Below, in pieces: positions 9,357-41,749 of a DNA stretch of 64,000 nucleotides. The notes beneath the pieces are model-generated. The model was not told the DNA's origin. It saw nothing but the letters and a program-made list of their open reading frames with translations, and did not search any database. The position numbers and the translations under genes were made by a program. Source of the stretch: Pyrobaculum ferrireducens (GTDB taxonomy: Archaea; Thermoproteota; Thermoprotei; Thermoproteales; Thermoproteaceae); NCBI RefSeq assembly GCF_000234805.1, contig NC_016645.1, positions 1,340,391-1,404,390 on the forward strand, written 5' to 3'. The number at the start of each line of letters is the position of its first letter. Positions within the stretch are counted from its first letter, which is position 1.

Positions 9357-10640
9357 TTATGTGGTTATGCCTATGTTTTTCACTATGGCGTATGGGGAGT
9401 GGGCGGGGGCTGGCATGTCCCACCAGTAGATCTGCCTGGCCTCTCTAGAGAGCTGGGCGACGTTATTGACGAGGTTTTCCAGGGTGTCCGCGATTCTGAT
9501 GTACTTCACCACGGCCGCCGGCTTCCCGTCTCTAACCTCCAGCGCCACGTCTCGGCCCACAGTGGAGAACTGCCCCGTCTTTACGTTTTGGAAGCGGGTG
9601 TACCAGTTGTTGTGTATGTAGTATCCCCGCCGCAGGTCGCGGAGGAGCTCCTCTAGATCGGCGGGGCCGTCCCCGGGGGCTATGCGTATGTGGCCCGGCC
9701 AAGGCCTGGCGTAGTGGTGCATGGCGTGGCCCGTGGGCTCCATGCCCAGGGCGTGGGCCGTCCTGCGGGTGTGGAGGAGGCCCGCCAGCTGGCCGCCTCT
9801 GTATATCTCCACCGGGCGCGGGGGGACGCCCTCGAGGTCGAAGGGGGTGTGGCCGTAGGCGGCGGGGTCGTAGGCGGCGTCGGCCACGGTTAAGAGCCGG
9901 GAGGCCACCTCTCTGCCTATGTCTTCCTTTGTGTAGCGGGATGTGCCTGCCAGGACCTCGGAGCCGCTTGCCCAGTTGCCCGCCGCCTCGCCTATTAGGT
10001 GGGCGAAGACGAGGGGGGAGAGGAGCAGGTCTGCCCTGACCTGCTCGACTCTGACGTGGGGGAGGCCCTTGGCCACGTCGAGGAGCTTGGCGTTTTCTCT
10101 GCCCAGCCTCGCTACGTCGATGTCGCCTATCCTCCTCCCGGCAACGGCGCTTGTGGCGGAGAGGTCGCCTAGGAACGACCTCATCGCCATGTATACCCGG
10201 TTTACCGAGTAGGCCCCGGAGCGGCCCGCAGTGTCTTCGTAGGAGACGGCGGCGTGGGTGAGGTGGACCACGCCAGCGCTTCTCTCCACTCCGGAGGCGG
10301 CGTCTACCGCGGTTTTCACCAGGTCTGGGAGTTTTTCAAAGTCCTCCGGGCTCTCGTGCCGGGTGGCGGGGCTGGGGCCGCCTATGGGGACGTAGAGGGG
10401 GTCCTCGGGCGCCGTTGCTAGCCTCTTGACGGCCTCCTCGACCTTCTCAAGGCTGGGAGGGCCGGTAACCGCCACCGCCGCCGTCTTTCTAGACTTGGCC
10501 ACGTAGATGAAGGTGCTCTCCGCGGCCCAGTGTTTGAAGGCTGTTACCTCGTCGTTGGCGAATCTGACCATGTAGTGGAGAAGCCTCGTCTTCACCACGG
10601 CGGCCTCGTCCACCCTGCCTGCGAGGATTTTGAGTATCAT
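9357..10640 (-). CDS. tldE: TldE/PmbA-like protease subunit
   Basis: About 427 residues of the TldD/PmbA family. It lacks the HExxxH zinc motif of its partner, as TldE subunits do. The family traits are a modulator-of-gyrase N-domain with VRFANDEVTAFK, a central region and a C-terminal motif NNWYTRFQNVKTGQFS. The start is the ATG at 10640, which overlaps the tldD stop by four bases (ATGA). In the known bacterial system TldD and TldE form a heterodimeric metalloprotease that degrades unfolded or modified small peptides in the cytoplasm. Confidence 0.85.
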   Translation of the reverse strand: MILKILAGRVDEAAVVKTRLLHYMVRFANDEVTAFKHWAAESTFIYVAKSRKTAAVAVTGPPSLEKVEEAVKRLATAPEDPLYVPIGGPSPATRHESPEDFEKLPDLVKTAVDAASGVERSAGVVHLTHAAVSYEDTAGRSGAYSVNRVYMAMRSFLGDLSATSAVAGRRIGDIDVARLGRENAKLLDVAKGLPHVRVEQVRADLLLSPLVFAHLIGEAAGNWASGSEVLAGTSRYTKEDIGREVASRLLTVADAAYDPAAYGHTPFDLEGVPPRPVEIYRGGQLAGLLHTRRTAHALGMEPTGHAMHHYARPWPGHIRIAPGDGPADLEELLRDLRRGYYIHNNWYTRFQNVKTGQFSTVGRDVALEVRDGKPAAVVKYIRIADTLENLVNNVAQLSREARQIYWWDMPAPAHSPYAIVKNIGITT

Positions 10641-12013
10641 GTCACCACCCTGAGGCTTCTGCTTCTGAAGGTGGGGCCTCCCATGGTGACTGGGATGCCC
10701 TGGGAGGGGTTGCCCTTGCCGCATGTCCCTACGAAGAGCTGGAAGTCTCTCCCCACGGCGTCTACGTTGCCCCAGAGCTCTGGGGTGTCCACCTCCACGA
10801 AGCCTTTTACTGGGTGTTTCACCTCGCCGTTTTCAATGAGATAGCCCTCGAGGATGCCATATCGACCTGAGTACCTCGTGTCGTTTATATTCCACTCGGT
10901 GTAGGAGACCATGTAGATGCCCCGCCTCGTGTCGCTGATGATTTCGCCGGGCTTCCAGTCCCCCGGCTCTAGGTAGGTGTTGGACATCCTGGGTATGGGC
11001 TCTCTGTCGAAGGCGGAGGCCCGGGCCCCGGCGTTGCTGTTGCCGCCGATGACCGCGGCGTACTGCCTATTGGTTATGAACTCCGTGGCCTCCCCCCTCC
11101 TTACCAACTGCTTAGGCCTCGCCACGACGCCCTCGTCGTCCACCAGGTAGAAGCCGTAGGTGCCGGGGATGGCGGGGTAGTCCGTGATGTTGACAAGCTC
11201 GCTACCGATCTTGACCCTGAGGTTGCCGGGCTTTATGTAGGACTCCCCCGCCTCCGCGCCCTCCCTGCCGTATATTCTATCGAGCTCGAAGGGGTGGCCC
11301 ACGGACTCGTGGACCAGTATCCCCGCCATCTCGGGGGAGAACACGACGTCGTACCTCCCCGGCGCGACAGACCTCGCCCTCTCCAGTAGCTGGCCCAGCT
11401 TCTTGGACTCCTCCTCGAGCACCTTCTCCGCCCCGGCTATGGAGTCTTGGGCGGTGCCGCCGAGGAAGACGTCTCTCTGCAAACTGCCGAGGGAGGGCTC
11501 GTGTTTTATCAACATGGCGAATAGATACACCCTCGGCACCTTGCTGTACACATCCGCTCCGTCGCTCGTCACCACTCGCTTCTCCGTCGTCCAGACGTGC
11601 GCCACCAGCCTCCTCGCTGAGAGGCTCTTGTCCACGTATTCGTCTAGAGACTTCAGCAGATCTACGGGGTCTACCTCAATGGGCGGGAGGCTGTAGCTGA
11701 ATCTGGCCAGCGCCTCCTCGCTGAGGGCCACCGGGGTCTTCCTCATCCTCCCGGCGGCCTTGGCCAGCTTGACCGCGCGCTCCACCGCCTCCAGCACCCC
11801 CTCCAGCTCTAGGCGGGGCGACGCGGCGAAGCCGAGCCCGCCCCCCGCCACGGCCCTCACGGCCACCCCCTCGCTGTGGTAGGTAGTGGAGAACTCAAAC
11901 TGCCCATTTCTAAAGCCGGCCACCGAGCCGCTGTCTCTCTGCCACCTCACCTCCACGTAGGAGGCCCCCAGAGATAGGCCGTACTCCAGAGCCTTGTAGA
12001 GTAGCTCATCCAT
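10637..12013 (-). CDS. tldD: TldD metalloprotease, catalytic subunit
   Basis: The catalytic partner of TldE. The zinc motif HESVGH is at about residues 235-240, followed by a conserved FELDR, and a family Cys lies near the C-terminus in FVGTCGKGNPSQG. I prefer ATG 12013 because family members begin Met-Asp-Glu-Leu-Leu; the longer frame to 12043 adds ten residues that look unlike the family. It is divergent from the SixA-like gene at 12074, with which it shares an AT-rich control region. Confidence 0.88.
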   Translation of the reverse strand: MDELLYKALEYGLSLGASYVEVRWQRDSGSVAGFRNGQFEFSTTYHSEGVAVRAVAGGGLGFAASPRLELEGVLEAVERAVKLAKAAGRMRKTPVALSEEALARFSYSLPPIEVDPVDLLKSLDEYVDKSLSARRLVAHVWTTEKRVVTSDGADVYSKVPRVYLFAMLIKHEPSLGSLQRDVFLGGTAQDSIAGAEKVLEEESKKLGQLLERARSVAPGRYDVVFSPEMAGILVHESVGHPFELDRIYGREGAEAGESYIKPGNLRVKIGSELVNITDYPAIPGTYGFYLVDDEGVVARPKQLVRRGEATEFITNRQYAAVIGGNSNAGARASAFDREPIPRMSNTYLEPGDWKPGEIISDTRRGIYMVSYTEWNINDTRYSGRYGILEGYLIENGEVKHPVKGFVEVDTPELWGNVDAVGRDFQLFVGTCGKGNPSQGIPVTMGGPTFRSRSLRVVT

Positions 12014-35502: not shown

Positions 35503-36707
35503 CTATTTCCTACGCCGCAGAGCTGTGAGGGAGTGCAGAGACCACATCTCGATGAAGCCCCGCGCCTCCTCGTCGCTGGGGTACCACCCCGCGCTGTAGT
35601 CAGCGAGCTCCTTGCTGTACCCCCCGTAGGGGGACTCCCTCCCCACCACCCACAGAGCCCCCTTGTACAGCTTCACCCTAACCACCCCCGACACCCACCG
35701 CTCCATCTCCCGCGCCGCCGCCTCCAGAGCCCCCCTCAGCGGCTCCACCCACAGCCCCTGGTACACCAAATCCGCCCACTGCGGGTCGAGGACGTTGTGC
35801 TTAAACCTCAGCTCCCTCGGCGTCAGCACCAGCTTCTCCAAGTCGCGGTGTGCGTGGAAGAGAATGACGGCGGCCGGCGCCTCGTACACCTCCCTACTCT
35901 TAAACCCCACCAGCCTATTCTCCACGTGGTCAATCCTCCCAACCCCGTGGGCCCCCCCGAGGTGGTTAAGCGCAGAGACGAGAGAGGCCAAGTCCATCCG
36001 CTCTCCGTTGAGCGCCACGGGGATGCCCCCTTCGAACTCTATAGCCACATACGCGGGCTCCGCCGGCGCCTTCTCCGGAGACACCGTCCACCTAAACGCC
36101 TCCTCAGGCGGCTCCACCATCGGGTCGTCCAGGGGATCCCCCTCGATAGACCTCGACCAGAGGTTGTCGTCTATGCTGAACTTCTTGTGCTCCTCCCCCA
36201 CCGGCAGGCCGTGCCTCCTCGCGTACTCCACCTCCTCAGCTCTTGTCATACCCCAAACCCTCGCCGGCGCGATGATCTTAAGATCCGGCGCCAGAGCCTT
36301 CACAGTCACGTCAAACCTCACTTGGTCATTACCCTTGCTAGTAGAGCCGTGAGCCACGGCGTCGGCCCCAACCCGCCGCGCCACCTCCACCACCTTCGCC
36401 GCGATGAGAGGCCTAGCCAGCGCCGTCCCCAGGGGGTACAGCCCCTCATACATGCCATTCATAAGAACCGCCCTAGCTATATACTCCTCGGCAAACTCCC
36501 TCCGGGCATCTATATAAAAGTGTTGCACAGCCCCCGCCTTGTAGGCCCTCTCCTCGATGGCGGAGAAGTCGTCCTCCTGCCCAACGTCGACAGTTACGGT
36601 GTAGACCTCCGCCCCCAGCCTCTCCGAAAGCCACTTGACGGCAACCGTGGTGTCCAGCCCGCCGGAGTAGGCCAGAACTACCTTACTCGCCCCGACTTAC
36701 TCCCCAT
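35503..36707 (-). CDS. argG: Argininosuccinate synthase, start needs a frame change
   Basis: The ATP-binding loop [11 protein letters not shown] and the later [20 protein letters not shown] and [11 protein letters not shown] motifs identify the enzyme that joins citrulline and aspartate. In the frame of the protein the codons before the loop run back to GTC 36696 and then the lysW stop, with no ATG, GTG or TTG. An ATG at 36707, in the next frame, gives MGSKSG and would join the protein if the GGGG run (C4 at 36690-36693 on plus) held one more G. The restored length is about 401 residues, normal for the family. A GTC start at 36696 is the alternative. Confidence 0.85.
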
Positions 36708-36882
36708 AGTCCTCCACATCACCCTTAAACTCCTCCAGCGAGACCGATCCACCCTTAAGCCTCACGATGTACCTAGCCCCACACGTGGGACAACTCGCAA
36801 TCTCCCCATCCATAACATCCTCCGGAAGGTCGAACTCAGTCCCGCACACCTTGCACTGAACCACCAGCTTCTGCGAGGCCAT
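36697..36882 (-). CDS. lysW: LysW amino-group carrier protein
   Basis: A 61-residue acidic carrier. Four cysteines (10, 13, 31, 34) form the zinc ribbon, and the C-terminal EDYGE ends in Glu61, whose side-chain carboxylate is linked to aminoadipate or glutamate during lysine and arginine synthesis. ATG 36882 is 22-24 bases after TTTTATAGT (36900-36908), which supports it over TTG 36891. It precedes argG, consistent with use of the carrier for arginine as well as lysine. Confidence 0.93.
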   Translation of the reverse strand: MASQKLVVQCKVCGTEFDLPEDVMDGEIASCPTCGARYIVRLKGGSVSLEEFKGDVEDYGE

Positions 36883-36908
36883 ACCCCCCAAATCAACCCA
36901 CTATAAAA

Positions 36909-37303
36909 CCTTTTCTCCCCATAGCACAACCCAACCGCCGAGAGAGGCTTCCCTTCAAATTTTTGATAATGTAGCGCTGAACTGTTGCAGATGTACTCAG
37001 CCTCTGGAGTCTATGTTCTATCAAACCGTTATTTTGAGCGTCGCCACATCTACATCTCGTGGTTGTGCGCGGTATTGTTAAAATGAGAGCAAAGCCTCGA
37101 CTCTCTACATGCCGTTGCTTTCCCAACGCGTTGGCGCGTTTTTCTAGCCTTGGGAGACTAGGTCTGGAGCGGATATAGAGCCCGGCAATTACTTATCGCT
37201 CTAACGCCTTGGCCACTCCTAACAGAGGCACACAGCGCAGACTTATTGTACTGAGATGAATAGGCGGTGGCGACGGTAATGTCCAATGCAGTGTTGTACA
37301 ACT
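36909..37303. other. Intergenic stretch, possible transposase remnant
   Basis: About 395 bases without an intact gene. On the minus strand near 36950-37070 one frame reads CRCGDAQNNGLIEH then ATVQRY, resembling the N-terminal zinc segment of archaeal transposases (C-x-x-C-G ... G ... Q-R-Y). The match is weak and no ends or duplications are visible. Confidence 0.25.
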
Positions 37304-38227
37304 TCACGGAGGGTTAGAGCTTTTTGTAAAGCATATTCTACACTTTTCACACGTCAGCTCCATGCCCACCTCGTTGGGACATATATACTTTTTCAAAGTC
37401 CCTATCTTGTTTATGAGGTTTTTTCGCCTGCTGTGCTCTAAGAAGACCACCAGCCTTTTCCCCCTCTTCTCCGCCCACTCGGCGGCTTTTCTGATCAGCG
37501 GAATCTGAGCCTCTGCCTCCTCCCCAGCCAGGAGATAGGTTATGTTGTCAAAATACTCGCCATATTTGTACAGATAGCTGAAGTTTGCCGCGTCAAGTGA
37601 CATGAGGATAACGAGGTTTTTAGGCCTCTCTGGAGATGCCGCTATTATTGGGAAGGATCGTGTATAAAGGTAAAAAGTTGTGGTGGGGAACTCCCCCGCC
37701 AGTCTTTTTATAAAATCCCAGTACCACGCCGAAAAGATATCACCACCCACGTGCAGTCGTATGATCCGCGTGCCGCGGTTGTGTACCACGAACTTGGTCC
37801 AGCCACTCAGCCACTCATAGCCTTCCTTAACTATGTGGATGTAGTTTAGATATTCACGTAAGAGGTGTTGCCTGCTATAACGCACAGTGTTTAAATCATA
37901 ACACACGTAACCTTTACCTTTGTAAAGACCTTGAGGTCCAGACCTGCCGCAAAAAGTAGCGTAGGGACACGTCAATACTGGCGGGAGATCAAAACTCCAG
38001 ATATCACCTATCTTTCTATTCCCGTGCGAGTAGGGCATCCTGGGGACTATTCTGGAAAGGCCCTTGCCTAGGCTCTCGGCAGTCCTTATCTGAATCTTAC
38101 GCAGAGCTGTCACTTCTATCTCCGTTGTCGGCGGTCGGTATGCCCCTGTTCTGTAAAGCGCCCAGGCGAGATCTCTCAAGGTAACTCCAGGCGCAACCTC
38201 TCTAGCTAGCCACGCCTCTGGCCTCAC
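37304..38227 (-). CDS. GP88-like protein with two cysteine clusters
   Basis: A 307-residue protein resembling the phage gene product 88 family. An N-terminal KIGDIWSFDLPPVLTCPYAT segment with Cys87, Cys93 and Cys109 and a central IIRLHVGGDIFSAWYWDF/FYLYTRSFP core are the family features. A C-terminal CxxC-rich tail (Cys283, 293, 296, 299) could bind zinc or a cluster. The biochemical role of the family is not established. The start is GTG 38227. It is divergent from the McrB-like gene and they share one AT-rich control region, which suggests joint function. Confidence 0.65.
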   Translation of the reverse strand: MRPEAWLAREVAPGVTLRDLAWALYRTGAYRPPTTEIEVTALRKIQIRTAESLGKGLSRIVPRMPYSHGNRKIGDIWSFDLPPVLTCPYATFCGRSGPQGLYKGKGYVCYDLNTVRYSRQHLLREYLNYIHIVKEGYEWLSGWTKFVVHNRGTRIIRLHVGGDIFSAWYWDFIKRLAGEFPTTTFYLYTRSFPIIAASPERPKNLVILMSLDAANFSYLYKYGEYFDNITYLLAGEEAEAQIPLIRKAAEWAEKRGKRLVVFLEHSRRKNLINKIGTLKKYICPNEVGMELTCEKCRICFTKSSNPP

Positions 38228-38240
38228 ATATATAACGTTC

Positions 38241-38252
38241 CGTATTTAATCA
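38241..38252. promoter_or_regulatory. Shared core promoter of the GP88-like and McrB-like genes
   Basis: CGTATTTAATC reads as a TATA-like element on both strands. It is about 20 bases from GTG 38227 on the minus side and about 20 bases from GTG 38266 on the plus side. With only 29 bases between the two annotated starts, the genes probably compete for or share one site. Confidence 0.4.
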
Positions 38253-38256
38253 AATT

Positions 38257-39648
38257 ATGTGTTTTGTGATCCAAGGCGCATATGAGAACTGGTACCACTC
38301 GTTAAACGACATTAATAAAAACAGTTTGAATCTAGGTTGTCCAGAAAACTGCAGGCAAAAAATCGAGAAGAAGAAAGGGGGAGTGATTCTGTGGGGGTTT
38401 GGGAGGAGAGAACTTTACGAAGAGCTAGAGAGAAGGGTGAAGGCACGTAGCGTAGGTGTAATTGGGGTATCACAGAAGCCAGATGATCGTAGGAGAAGCG
38501 AGCTGGGCAGGAGGGTTGTGCTCGTGGGGGAGCTAAGCGAAGAGGATCTCATCGGAGAGTGTAAATGCGACTATTGGCCTAAGGGCACCGGCTGGGATTA
38601 CAAGTTTTTCATTAAGGTGAGGCTGTGGCTACCTGAGGCTGAATACGGCAAGGGAATCGAATTCCCCACCTTCCAGGGATCTCTCGAAGTGTTAGACTGC
38701 AGACTGGTGGAAAAAATAGCGGAACTTGCCCAATACATCGGTTACGTACCCGGTCCTACAAGAACTGTGGAGTGCCCTCTCAGCGGTATTAGGAAGTTAG
38801 GAGAGAAGCTACGCGAAGAGTTTTTCGTTAAGACAGTCGATTTAGACCTGCTCCTTGAGGCGTTGGAGGCGGGTAATGTCCTTCTCGCCGGGCCGCCCGG
38901 CACTGGCAAAACGGCTCTCGCCAAGAGAATTGCTGAGTTAGCCGCGGCGCCGGGCAGTCACAACCATATCATCGCCGTGGCGCATTCCCTCTGGTTCCGC
39001 AGGGACGTGATAGGCGGGGAGTCTCTTGGGCCAGACGGCGTGTTCTGGAGATCTGGGCTTTTCATAAAGGCTTATAACATGGCGGCTGAGAGGCTGGAGA
39101 GGGGCCTGTCTGGACCTGTGTTTCTTATACTCGACGAGGTAAATAGAGCCGACATTGACAAGGCATTTGCCGATCTTTTCGCAATATTTCGCACTCAGTT
39201 CTGCGACGACTGGAGCATCCCAGTAAGCCTAGTAGAGGAAATCGAGGCCTACGGCGATAAAGTAGACGATGATGCAAAAAAGTTTGTCAAATACTATAGA
39301 AAATATAAGGATTCACCATTGAGACTTATTAGGGTTGTGGCCACTATGAACATAAAAGATTGGAGAAACCTCTTCCTTACTGGCGAGGCTTTCCTCCGGC
39401 GATTTGTAATAGTAAAGACAGAGTGTCCAGAAGTAGACTCCTATATTGACAGAGTCGATGGATCTGAGGAGGTAAAACAGGAGATTAGGAAGGCGGCGGG
39501 GGAGCTAGGCGGTTGCGTGCCGCCTGCGGCTGTGATCGCCGCGGCAAAGCTCTTGAAAAATCTCGACAGAGGGAGGGCTGATGCGAAGACTGTTTTAAAC
39601 GCGGTGTTGGGAAGTAGGGAGTACCTCCTAGGAAGAAGACGCCGCTAG
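38257..39648 (+). CDS. McrB-like AAA+ ATPase with N-terminal reader-like domain
   Basis: A 463-residue protein. Residues 195-440 are an AAA+ module of the McrB/MoxR type: Walker A GPPGTGKT (212-219), Walker B LILDEVNRAD, sensor MNIKDWRN in the place of the McrB MNTAD-type motif, and arginine finger LRRF. The N-terminal 130 residues (ENWYHSL, GGVILWG, VGVIGVS, KVRLWLP) look like an EVE/PUA-type base-recognition domain, which McrB proteins use to bind modified DNA; this part is inferred. The nuclease partner follows after 3 bases. ATG 38257 and GTG 38266 are both possible starts. Confidence 0.75.
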   Translation: MCFVIQGAYENWYHSLNDINKNSLNLGCPENCRQKIEKKKGGVILWGFGRRELYEELERRVKARSVGVIGVSQKPDDRRRSELGRRVVLVGELSEEDLIGECKCDYWPKGTGWDYKFFIKVRLWLPEAEYGKGIEFPTFQGSLEVLDCRLVEKIAELAQYIGYVPGPTRTVECPLSGIRKLGEKLREEFFVKTVDLDLLLEALEAGNVLLAGPPGTGKTALAKRIAELAAAPGSHNHIIAVAHSLWFRRDVIGGESLGPDGVFWRSGLFIKAYNMAAERLERGLSGPVFLILDEVNRADIDKAFADLFAIFRTQFCDDWSIPVSLVEEIEAYGDKVDDDAKKFVKYYRKYKDSPLRLIRVVATMNIKDWRNLFLTGEAFLRRFVIVKTECPEVDSYIDRVDGSEEVKQEIRKAAGELGGCVPPAAVIAAAKLLKNLDRGRADAKTVLNAVLGSREYLLGRRRR

Positions 39649-39651
39649 GGT

Positions 39652-40860
39652 GTGAACAAGACGGAGATAAGGAGGCGCAACCTTGGTCTGTTGGTAGGAG
39701 GTAGATACTTCCGTTACTATCGCCAACCCAGTATCAAGATAATAGAAAGCCTAATGCGTAGAGCTGGCGAGGAGGCTGTCGCCGCGTCTTTTAGGGATCT
39801 GGCCCTAGAGGCTTTAAAATATGCATTGGGCCTTCTGAAGATTGAGGTGGAGAGGGCGCTGAGAGATAGGCTTGTCTACCGCGAATTTGGCGTGGTTTAC
39901 GGCGCGGATATAGAGGGGGCTATAGACGTCGCTAGGAGTATTGCGGTGAAGCCGGGGTGTCTAGTCGCATCGCTCACGTACCTCCCGTCTAGACAAGCGC
40001 CTGAGTATCTGCTAATGCGGCGTGTAGCGAGAGAGGCGCTCAACGCCGCGAGGCGCATGGCCGCCGGCGACGAAGAGGCGGCGAGGCTCTTGGAGGGAAT
40101 AGCTAAGCTCCTACGCCACTTGCCAGCAGGGACAACTAGTTTAGAGTGTGGAGATGTTGAATATGTACAGTGGTTACGCAGAGCATGTTTAATCAATAGA
40201 TTTGTAAAGGCGTTGGAAAAATCTGTAAAAGTCGGACGTGTAGCGGGGATAGGTGAAGAGGTGGTATTCCGCGACTGGAGGCTTTACGAGATCTACACAT
40301 ACTTCCTCATCTACGATGTATTCAAAAGTGCGGGATTTGAGGAGGCGGCGTGTCGCGACGCCGCCGGAGGCGGCGAGCCGGATCTCACCCTCAAGAAGGG
40401 TGGCAAATGTATCATAATTTACTTCAACAAACCGCTGAACTATTCCCTAGTGGAGAGGTACAACGGTTATGACGCCAGCTTGCACCGGGGGAGGCCTGAC
40501 GTCCTTGTAGAAGACGGCGATGTAAGGATTGTGGTGGAGGCAAAATTCTCCACATCACCTTCCTACATCGCCTTGGGCAGATTTAAGACAATGGCCTATA
40601 TGTACGAGTACTCGGCCGACGCCGGTATTTTGATCTTTCCTGCGATTGAGGGGGTGCCAACAGACGAGGAGGAAAGAAGCATTGCCGAGCTCTATAAATA
40701 CATGGAGAAGGAAGGCATTGCAATGCTACATCTACGTGACGGCAGAAATCTACACCTCATAAGAATAGACCCCGCAGAGACGGAGGATCCATACGAGTCG
40801 GACAGGTTGGCACGTGAAAGACTAAGACGTGTGCTCAAAATCCAACACATCGACCTATGA
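39652..40860 (+). CDS. McrC-like PD-(D/E)xK nuclease subunit
   Basis: A 402-residue protein. The C-terminal nuclease core has RPDVLVEDGDVRIVVEAKF, with Asp283 and Glu296-x-Lys298 as metal-site residues. The N-terminal 220 residues are helical and basic, as in McrC, and dock to the McrB ring. With the ATPase upstream it should form a nucleotide-driven restriction complex that cuts modified or foreign DNA. GTG 39652 is the start, 3 bases after the upstream stop. Confidence 0.78.
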   Translation: MNKTEIRRRNLGLLVGGRYFRYYRQPSIKIIESLMRRAGEEAVAASFRDLALEALKYALGLLKIEVERALRDRLVYREFGVVYGADIEGAIDVARSIAVKPGCLVASLTYLPSRQAPEYLLMRRVAREALNAARRMAAGDEEAARLLEGIAKLLRHLPAGTTSLECGDVEYVQWLRRACLINRFVKALEKSVKVGRVAGIGEEVVFRDWRLYEIYTYFLIYDVFKSAGFEEAACRDAAGGGEPDLTLKKGGKCIIIYFNKPLNYSLVERYNGYDASLHRGRPDVLVEDGDVRIVVEAKFSTSPSYIALGRFKTMAYMYEYSADAGILIFPAIEGVPTDEEERSIAELYKYMEKEGIAMLHLRDGRNLHLIRIDPAETEDPYESDRLARERLRRVLKIQHIDL

Positions 40861-40969
40861 GATGGTGAAGTAAATTCAGCATATTACACGGTTGGGCAAT
40901 TACGTAGCGAAAATATCTGCCAAATTTGGGAGGAAGTCTAAAACTAGCTTGGAGGCGTCGTTATTTGTC

Positions 40970-41749
40970 TTATGGCGTGATGTGTGTGCCGGCTCCGTTT
41001 AGGGCTGTGTCTATGGGGCTGTCGGAGAGTCCGCTTGCGATTATTACCTCTATGCCGGTTTTGGCGGCCTCGGCGGCCATGAGTAGTTTTCTCTTCATGC
41101 CTCCCCTCACCTCTTCGCTTTGGACTAGCTTCTCCGCCTCTGGGGCGGTGAGGTGGGGCACCACCTTCCCGCCTATGTAGAGGCCCTCCACGTCGCTGAG
41201 GAGCAGGAGCTTCTGGGCCTTCACGGCCTTGGCTACGTCGAAGGCTAGCTGGTCTCCGTCGACGTTTAGAAGCTCGCCCTTCTCAGACACGGCGATGGGT
41301 GCCAGCAGTTTGAGGGGTGGGGGGAGTAGCTTGTCTGCATCTATCTGGGTGATGCGGCCGACGTAGCCTCCGTCCACCACCCTCTGCCGCCCCCTCTCGT
41401 CTACTATCAGGACTTTTTCTTTGCGTTTCGCCTTGACGACGCCGAGGTCTGCGCCGGTTAGGCCGAGGGCCGGTACGCCGAGGGCGTGGAGGGAGGCGAC
41501 TATCTGTTTGTTTATCCAGTTCATGGCCATGACGAAGGTTTTTAGGGTTTCCCAGTCGGTGTATCTGCTTACGAGGCCTCCTGGGTGGGTTAGGTACTTG
41601 GGCTCTAGGCCTAGTCGCCTCATGAGATCGTTTACCATGCAACCGCCTCCGTGTACCACGACGGCTCGGTCTGCGTATTTGGGGAGGTTTTGTATTGTCT
41701 TGGTGGGGTCTTTGCAGACTACTGACCCGCCTATTTTTACGACTATCAT
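40970..41749 (-). CDS. lysZ: LysZ, [LysW]-aminoadipate/glutamate kinase
   Basis: A 259-residue amino acid kinase of the ArgB/LysZ type. VKIGGSVV at the N-terminus, [12 protein letters not shown] for substrate binding and [10 protein letters not shown] plus GGMKRKL for ATP binding are visible. It phosphorylates the carboxylate of LysW-bound aminoadipate (or glutamate for arginine). The ATG overlaps the lysY stop by four bases; transcription order is lysX-like, lysY, lysZ. Confidence 0.92.

Follow-up and report, generated by a model that had tools for sequence, protein, structure and literature searches.

McrBC systems of type IV, as described in Escherichia coli and in Thermococcus gammatolerans, whose McrB bears a YTH/EVE-like domain, encode in one operon a McrB GTPase with a fused N-terminal domain and the PD-(D/E)xK nuclease McrC. 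The NxxD motif is the signature of the McrB GTPases, and branches of McrB linked to DNA methyltransferases are known (PMC11090510). The window analysed here, a stretch of 64,000 nucleotides from Pyrobaculum ferrireducens, contains an operon of the same architecture, including the NxxD signature, but with an additional, divergent gene of the Gene product 88 (GP88) family, PF17338. This extra gene, the counterpart of which in the Thermofilaceae encodes a radical S-adenosylmethionine (SAM) protein, distinguishes the system from those of E. coli and T. gammatolerans, as do a McrC too divergent for the Pfam and NCBIfam models and an N-terminal McrB domain matching no known reader family. The methyltransferase-linked branches offer a parallel, since there too McrBC shares its locus with a nucleic-acid-modifying enzyme, although the partner found here is GP88 or a radical SAM protein and not a methyltransferase. 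We propose that the locus rather probably encodes a type IV restriction module of three parts, one of them an accessory enzyme of the radical-SAM-like kind. McrBC and GP88 were not found together in the open-access papers searched, nor was PF17338; to judge by titles and targeted passages, no paper on both McrBC and radical SAM appeared relevant, and the main text of the McrB census (PMC11090510) contains none of the terms “radical SAM”, “Pyrobaculum” and “Thermoprote-”.

Conserved linkage of GP88 and McrBC

The sequence-only reading had recognised GP88-like, McrB-like and McrC-like open reading frames (ORFs) at positions 37304–40860, with a gap of 29 bp between the first two, and both the coordinates and the identities were confirmed:

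37304..38227, minus strand: GP88-family protein (PF17338) of the McrBC-linked subfamily, 307 amino acids (aa), from the ORF list, Pfam match, alignment and structure model
38228..38256, no strand: AT-rich divergent intergenic gap of 29 bp with TATA-like stretches, putative promoter
38257..39648, plus strand: McrB-like AAA+ GTPase, 463 aa; residues 1–150 putative reader domain, GTPase from residue 187 onward
39652..40860, plus strand: McrC-like nuclease, 402 aa; PD-(D/E)xK motif RPD(281–283)...VVEAK(294–298)

The start codons of the GP88 and McrB genes diverge from the two sides of the 29 bp gap, and McrC starts 3 bp past the McrB stop codon. From the conservation of the AT-rich gap, it is plausible that GP88 and McrB have one promoter in common.

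Among the genomes compared (398 in the phylum, 45 in the order and 17 in the family Thermofilaceae), a GP88 match was present in 11 of the 398. The McrBC-linked subfamily occurred in five of the 45 genomes of the order, belonging to two genera: the window genome (G000), Pyrobaculum sp. WP30 (G065), G026, G034 and, from the other genus, G105. In all five, GP88 stood head-to-head with the same McrBC. The gap between GP88 and McrB was 28–29 bp in four genomes; in G065, counted to the earliest start codon that could be used, it was 11 bp. The association had a hypergeometric probability of 5e-6, a value that ignores shared ancestry. The arrangement exceeds chance, since it persists in four further genomes, whose GP88 is about 60% identical. 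Across the older splits GP88, at about 60% identity, was better conserved than its two neighbours, McrB standing at about 42% and McrC at about 36%, and its ratio of nonsynonymous to synonymous substitutions (dN/dS) was 0.17–0.27 where measurable, showing purifying selection. The sequence-only reading had called for a search for co-occurrence across archaeal genomes. GP88 of this subfamily was always found beside McrBC, and the central idea, a possible three-part system with GP88 as a real partner of McrBC, is supported by this linkage in five of five carriers and two genera. An additional trace of the pairing was visible in G058, where a GP88 fragment (51% identity over 39 aa; L192 9751–9940, plus strand) lies just upstream of a different McrB and is likely a remnant.

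The window McrB matched the Pfam AAA_5 model (E 5e-11), the NCBIfam McrB model (5.7e-11, under the equivalog cut-off of that model) and the solved E. coli McrB chains (E 2.6e-12). It possesses the Walker A motif GPPGTGKT, the DEVNRA motif and the NxxD signature in the form MNIKD, as expected of a McrB-like AAA+ GTPase. Residues 1–150 constitute a conserved domain, also present in McrBs of the Thermofilaceae. The description of this N-terminus as reader-like was not established, as no known reader fold was matched. The domain corresponded to no Pfam family, no match to PF01878 (EVE) was found in any of the five carriers, the comparison with EVE by hhalign was not significant, and the PDB profile search gave no EVE identity. 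An EVE/YTH identity was not shown by these comparisons.

For McrC, the window protein alone found no family in the Pfam and NCBIfam searches; its relatives reached PF10117 only below threshold (best E 0.16), and DUF2357 was not detected. The McrC profile matched the solved PD-(D/E)xK-type chain 4ic1, which we take to be a Cas4-like nuclease, with an E-value of 0.002, and the nuclease motif RPD...VVE(A/C)K was invariant across the alignment.

Insertion site and horizontal transfer of the cassette

The cassette fills the interval between lysW and lysZ:

36697..36891, minus strand: LysW-like carrier protein, left flank, from the Pfam search
36884..40975, no strand: inserted segment corresponding to the cassette between lysW and lysZ; empty site in five relatives
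40970..41749, minus strand: LysZ/ArgB-like kinase, right flank, named from sequence and context

In G065, G058, G026, G018 and G129, lysW directly neighbours lysZ at a distance of about 84 bp, whereas about 4.09 kb separate them in the window. No clear target-site duplication was visible by eye. The closest relative, G010, whose LysZ is 98% identical, possesses genes for a SNF2 helicase, DUF499 and DUF1156 in the same flank (L214 1–8402, beside lysZ at 10620–11399), a combination reported as a predicted restriction system (PMC7641849). The lysW–lysZ interval thus looks like a defence hot spot. About 14 kb from this flank, G010 also has a stand-alone EVE gene. Almost the same place has received a further insertion in G129, where a PaRep2b gene (L215 6884–10666) separates lysW from the argG region. 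Short fragments 83–92% identical to LysZ were seen elsewhere in the window genome (G000:C1:260129–260284 and 2446327–2446510) and are probably decayed duplicates.

A CRISPR array is located no more than about 10 kb from the cassette in both G034 and G105, and cas genes occupy the space between the two (in G105, as judged from homologous ORFs). Between these two genomes of different genera, GP88 was 96% identical, McrC 89%, the GTPase part of McrB 91% and its N-terminal domain 54%, whereas ribosomal protein L3 was 70% identical. The excess of GP88 identity over that of L3 points to a recent horizontal transfer, and the GP88–McrB–McrC trio moves as a unit. Within it, the putative recognition part of McrB changes quickly and GP88 does not.

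GP88 and the radical SAM enzymes

In five Thermofilaceae genomes (G153, G177, G200, G171 and G304), a radical SAM gene adjoins McrBC:

L091 5893–7005, minus strand: McrBC-linked radical SAM gene
L092 6937–8049, plus strand: McrBC-linked radical SAM gene
L093 2638–3870, plus strand: McrBC-linked radical SAM gene
L128 2967–4130, plus strand: McrBC-linked radical SAM gene
L129 10086–11210, minus strand: McrBC-linked radical SAM gene

All five proteins contain CxxxCxxC, and those of G177 and G153 matched PF04055 with E-values of 5.4e-12 and 1.5e-13, respectively. They resemble the PA0069 and Rv2578c families and, more distantly, spore photoproduct lyase, below the equivalog cut-offs, whereas GP88 matches none of these. 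This subfamily (at least 45% identity) was restricted to these five of the 17 Thermofilaceae genomes, other copies being at most 37% identical. The McrB N-terminal domain is that of the window in G153, G177 and G200, another one in G171 and absent in G304. The radical SAM gene is convergent and overlaps McrC in G153 and G177, precedes McrBC in the same orientation in G200 and G171, and is divergent in G304. In the latter genome, a stand-alone ORF of 158 aa (L128 4310–4786, plus strand), weakly similar to the McrB N-terminal domain, adjoins the radical SAM gene and a McrB starting at its GTPase domain, in the manner of a split reader. No intact GP88 or McrBC-linked radical SAM gene was found in 41 other Thermoproteota McrBC loci (one held a GP88 remnant), some of which end at contig ends, and the profile used would miss other radical SAM families.

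The window GP88 is a clear member of PF17338 (E 4.9e-25, 89.1 bits for a gathering cut-off of 24.4). Residues C87, C93, C109, H159, G162, D163, C293, C296 and C299 are invariant in both Pyrobaculum GP88 subfamilies. Its structure model (mean predicted local distance difference test, pLDDT, 75.5; predicted template modelling score, pTM, 0.77) shows six beta/alpha units alternating in a barrel. The cysteines C87, C93 and C109 follow strand 1, and the GGD of residues 161–163 ends strand 2. In radical SAM enzymes, CxxxCxxC and GGE occupy these positions, after strands 1 and 2. In a library of viral folds, the named matches other than GP88 itself were mostly radical SAM proteins, Gp37/Gp68-like proteins or Fe-S oxidoreductases; one phosphodiesterase ranked among the better matches. 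Among the top 50 matches of the PDB fold search, QueE, TigE, BlsE, NifB, MoaA and viperin-like enzymes recurred amid generic barrels, the E-values being weak throughout. We regard it as likely, though not proven, that GP88 belongs to the radical SAM enzymes.

Several observations weigh against this assignment. The cysteine spacing is Cx5Cx15C in the window protein and Cx6Cx3C in most GP88 proteins, instead of CxxxCxxC; the canonical motif being absent, we do not count GP88 among the canonical proteins of the radical SAM superfamily. The cysteine loop of the model (residues 88–116) has low confidence, and no PDB fold match reached an E-value of 0.001 or below. A second model, of a shorter member, had lower confidence, gave mostly generic barrel matches and did not sharpen the fold. 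Profile comparison aligned GP88 with radical SAM in a plausible register, yet the result did not differ significantly from that of the controls, and even with relaxed Pfam thresholds none of 13 GP88 proteins matched a radical SAM model. The GP88 sequence resembled no solved structure.

GP88 could instead be a barrel metalloprotein of another kind, such as a zinc hydrolase or lyase, working in the same system. A phosphodiesterase is present among the top PDB matches, and the generic barrels found with the second model would also fit. This explanation seems improbable to us in view of the location of the motifs after strands 1 and 2, the named radical SAM matches of the viral library and the true radical SAM enzymes of the parallel Thermofilaceae systems.

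Single-sequence searches of the genome and viral contigs returned no relatives of GP88; profile searches of both did. Six Pyrobaculum genomes encode a second GP88, 28–32% identical to the McrBC-linked one (two examples are given below). In all six it is flanked by dehydroquinase/chorismate-mutase and aminotransferase genes (neighbours checked with Pfam), and in at least four the genes of ribosomal proteins L3 and L4, named from sequence, lie a few kilobases off.

L085 9264–10139, minus strand: stand-alone Pyrobaculum GP88 paralogue
L096 9845–10714, plus strand: stand-alone Pyrobaculum GP88 paralogue

This second GP88 is a fixed cellular chromosomal gene, possibly with a role in aromatic metabolism. 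The nearest relatives of the cassette GP88 are cellular, and a phage origin was rejected; the idea of a phage-derived trigger in the sequence-only reading finds no support, and nothing in the analysis favours the sensor or toxin that it had also envisaged. GP88 is present in many actinophages, in which the family and its Cys and GD motifs are the same. The phage copies examined (mycobacteriophage, Streptomyces phage and cyanophage) had hypothetical and ParB-like genes as neighbours, and no McrBC was annotated near them. In Streptomyces and Mycobacterium phages, GP88 is a few genes away from ParB-like nuclease genes (L169 1631–3483, L172 2229–4604). A contig labelled as a Neisseriaceae metagenome-assembled genome, virus-like in appearance, encodes a GP88 domain within a 609 aa protein (L102 9656–11485, plus strand) beside a gene for about 2,700 aa.

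Possible roles of GP88 in the module

In the model that we propose, the cassette is a mobile module of the McrBC (type IV) class that includes, besides McrB and McrC, a conserved third component. McrB would be the GTP-driven motor, its N-terminal domain probably recognising a marked nucleic acid, and McrC the nuclease served by this motor. For GP88 the most probable identity is a barrel enzyme of the iron-sulphur type that resembles radical SAM enzymes. It would give chemical support to the system and may work on nucleotides or nucleic acid, whether by adding or altering a mark that bears on McrBC cutting or by protecting the host. In the Thermofilaceae a canonical radical SAM protein would stand in for GP88. 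The part of this model that concerns nucleic-acid or nucleotide chemistry is tentative. Modification of the target, one of the roles suggested from the sequence alone, is possible and would fit the radical SAM parallel. Between G034 and G105, GP88 has stayed nearly constant (96% identity) and the N-terminal domain has not (54%), which indicates that GP88 is not matched to a particular reader and argues against a tight writer–reader pair. Priming, host protection or modification of a substrate common to both is thus no less likely than the writing of a specific mark. It is conceivable, though we doubt it, that there is a single new class of restriction system in which either GP88 or a radical SAM protein of the Thermofilaceae kind serves as the catalytic subunit. 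Radical chemistry on nucleic acid would then make, remove or reveal the mark read by McrBC, which would thereby gain a modification enzyme of its own.

A regulatory function is an improbable alternative. GP88 would then be a regulator or an Fe-S redox sensor whose clustered cysteines, together with the divergent promoter, serve to restrain or activate McrBC. A divergent pair with a conserved short gap is typical of regulators and their targets, and the cysteine clusters are indeed conserved. Yet no DNA-binding domain was found in GP88 among the family searches, and the Thermofilaceae radical SAM genes are mostly not divergent from McrB, so that a shared promoter is not a common feature of these systems.

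A passenger role, in which GP88 hitch-hikes beside McrBC in a defence island without any relation to it, is equally improbable. The existence of McrBC with no GP88 in the same genus, in G189, a sixth genome with this McrBC, fits this explanation. Against the three-part module itself stand G189 and G181, whose McrBC has the same N-terminal domain and neither GP88 nor a radical SAM or other partner, and G065, which has a second, truncated McrBC with no partner. This second copy (L077 4441–6605, minus strand) is inverted, about 6 kb from the first, and its McrB is devoid of the N-terminal domain. Since the cassette moves horizontally, a single chance pairing could also have spread. On the other side, the pairing outlasts an old divergence (60% identity of GP88, 42% of McrB), GP88 is under purifying selection, its remnant stands beside a different McrB in G058, and an independent pairing of radical SAM with McrBC exists.

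Prokaryotic viperins illustrate the use of a radical SAM barrel in antiviral defence (PMC11291487). That GP88 likewise makes a soluble antiviral nucleotide, sharing with McrBC an island and a promoter but not a target, would agree with the viperin-like enzymes among its fold matches and with a constant GP88 beside a variable N-terminal domain, as expected if the targets differ, but is made unlikely by the tight head-to-head linkage and joint transfer with McrBC, by the absence of detectable sequence similarity to viperins, by the Thermofilaceae partners, which resemble PA0069, Rv2578c and spore photoproduct lyase and not viperin, and by PADLOC, in which no model or system, viperin models included, matched GP88 or the cassette.

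The linkage of McrBC with GP88 in certain thermophilic archaea, and with a true radical SAM enzyme in related systems, suggests that an Fe-S enzyme of the GP88/radical SAM kind acts as a functional but so far overlooked component of these restriction systems. If so, radical SAM enzymes would join the recognised parts of McrBC defence. For GP88, a family without known function that is represented in hundreds of phage records, the partnership with McrBC provides a lead to its chemistry, and its replacement by radical SAM in a sister lineage predicts an Fe-S/SAM activity. The GP88 proteins of phages may then perform related chemistry, perhaps evading such systems.

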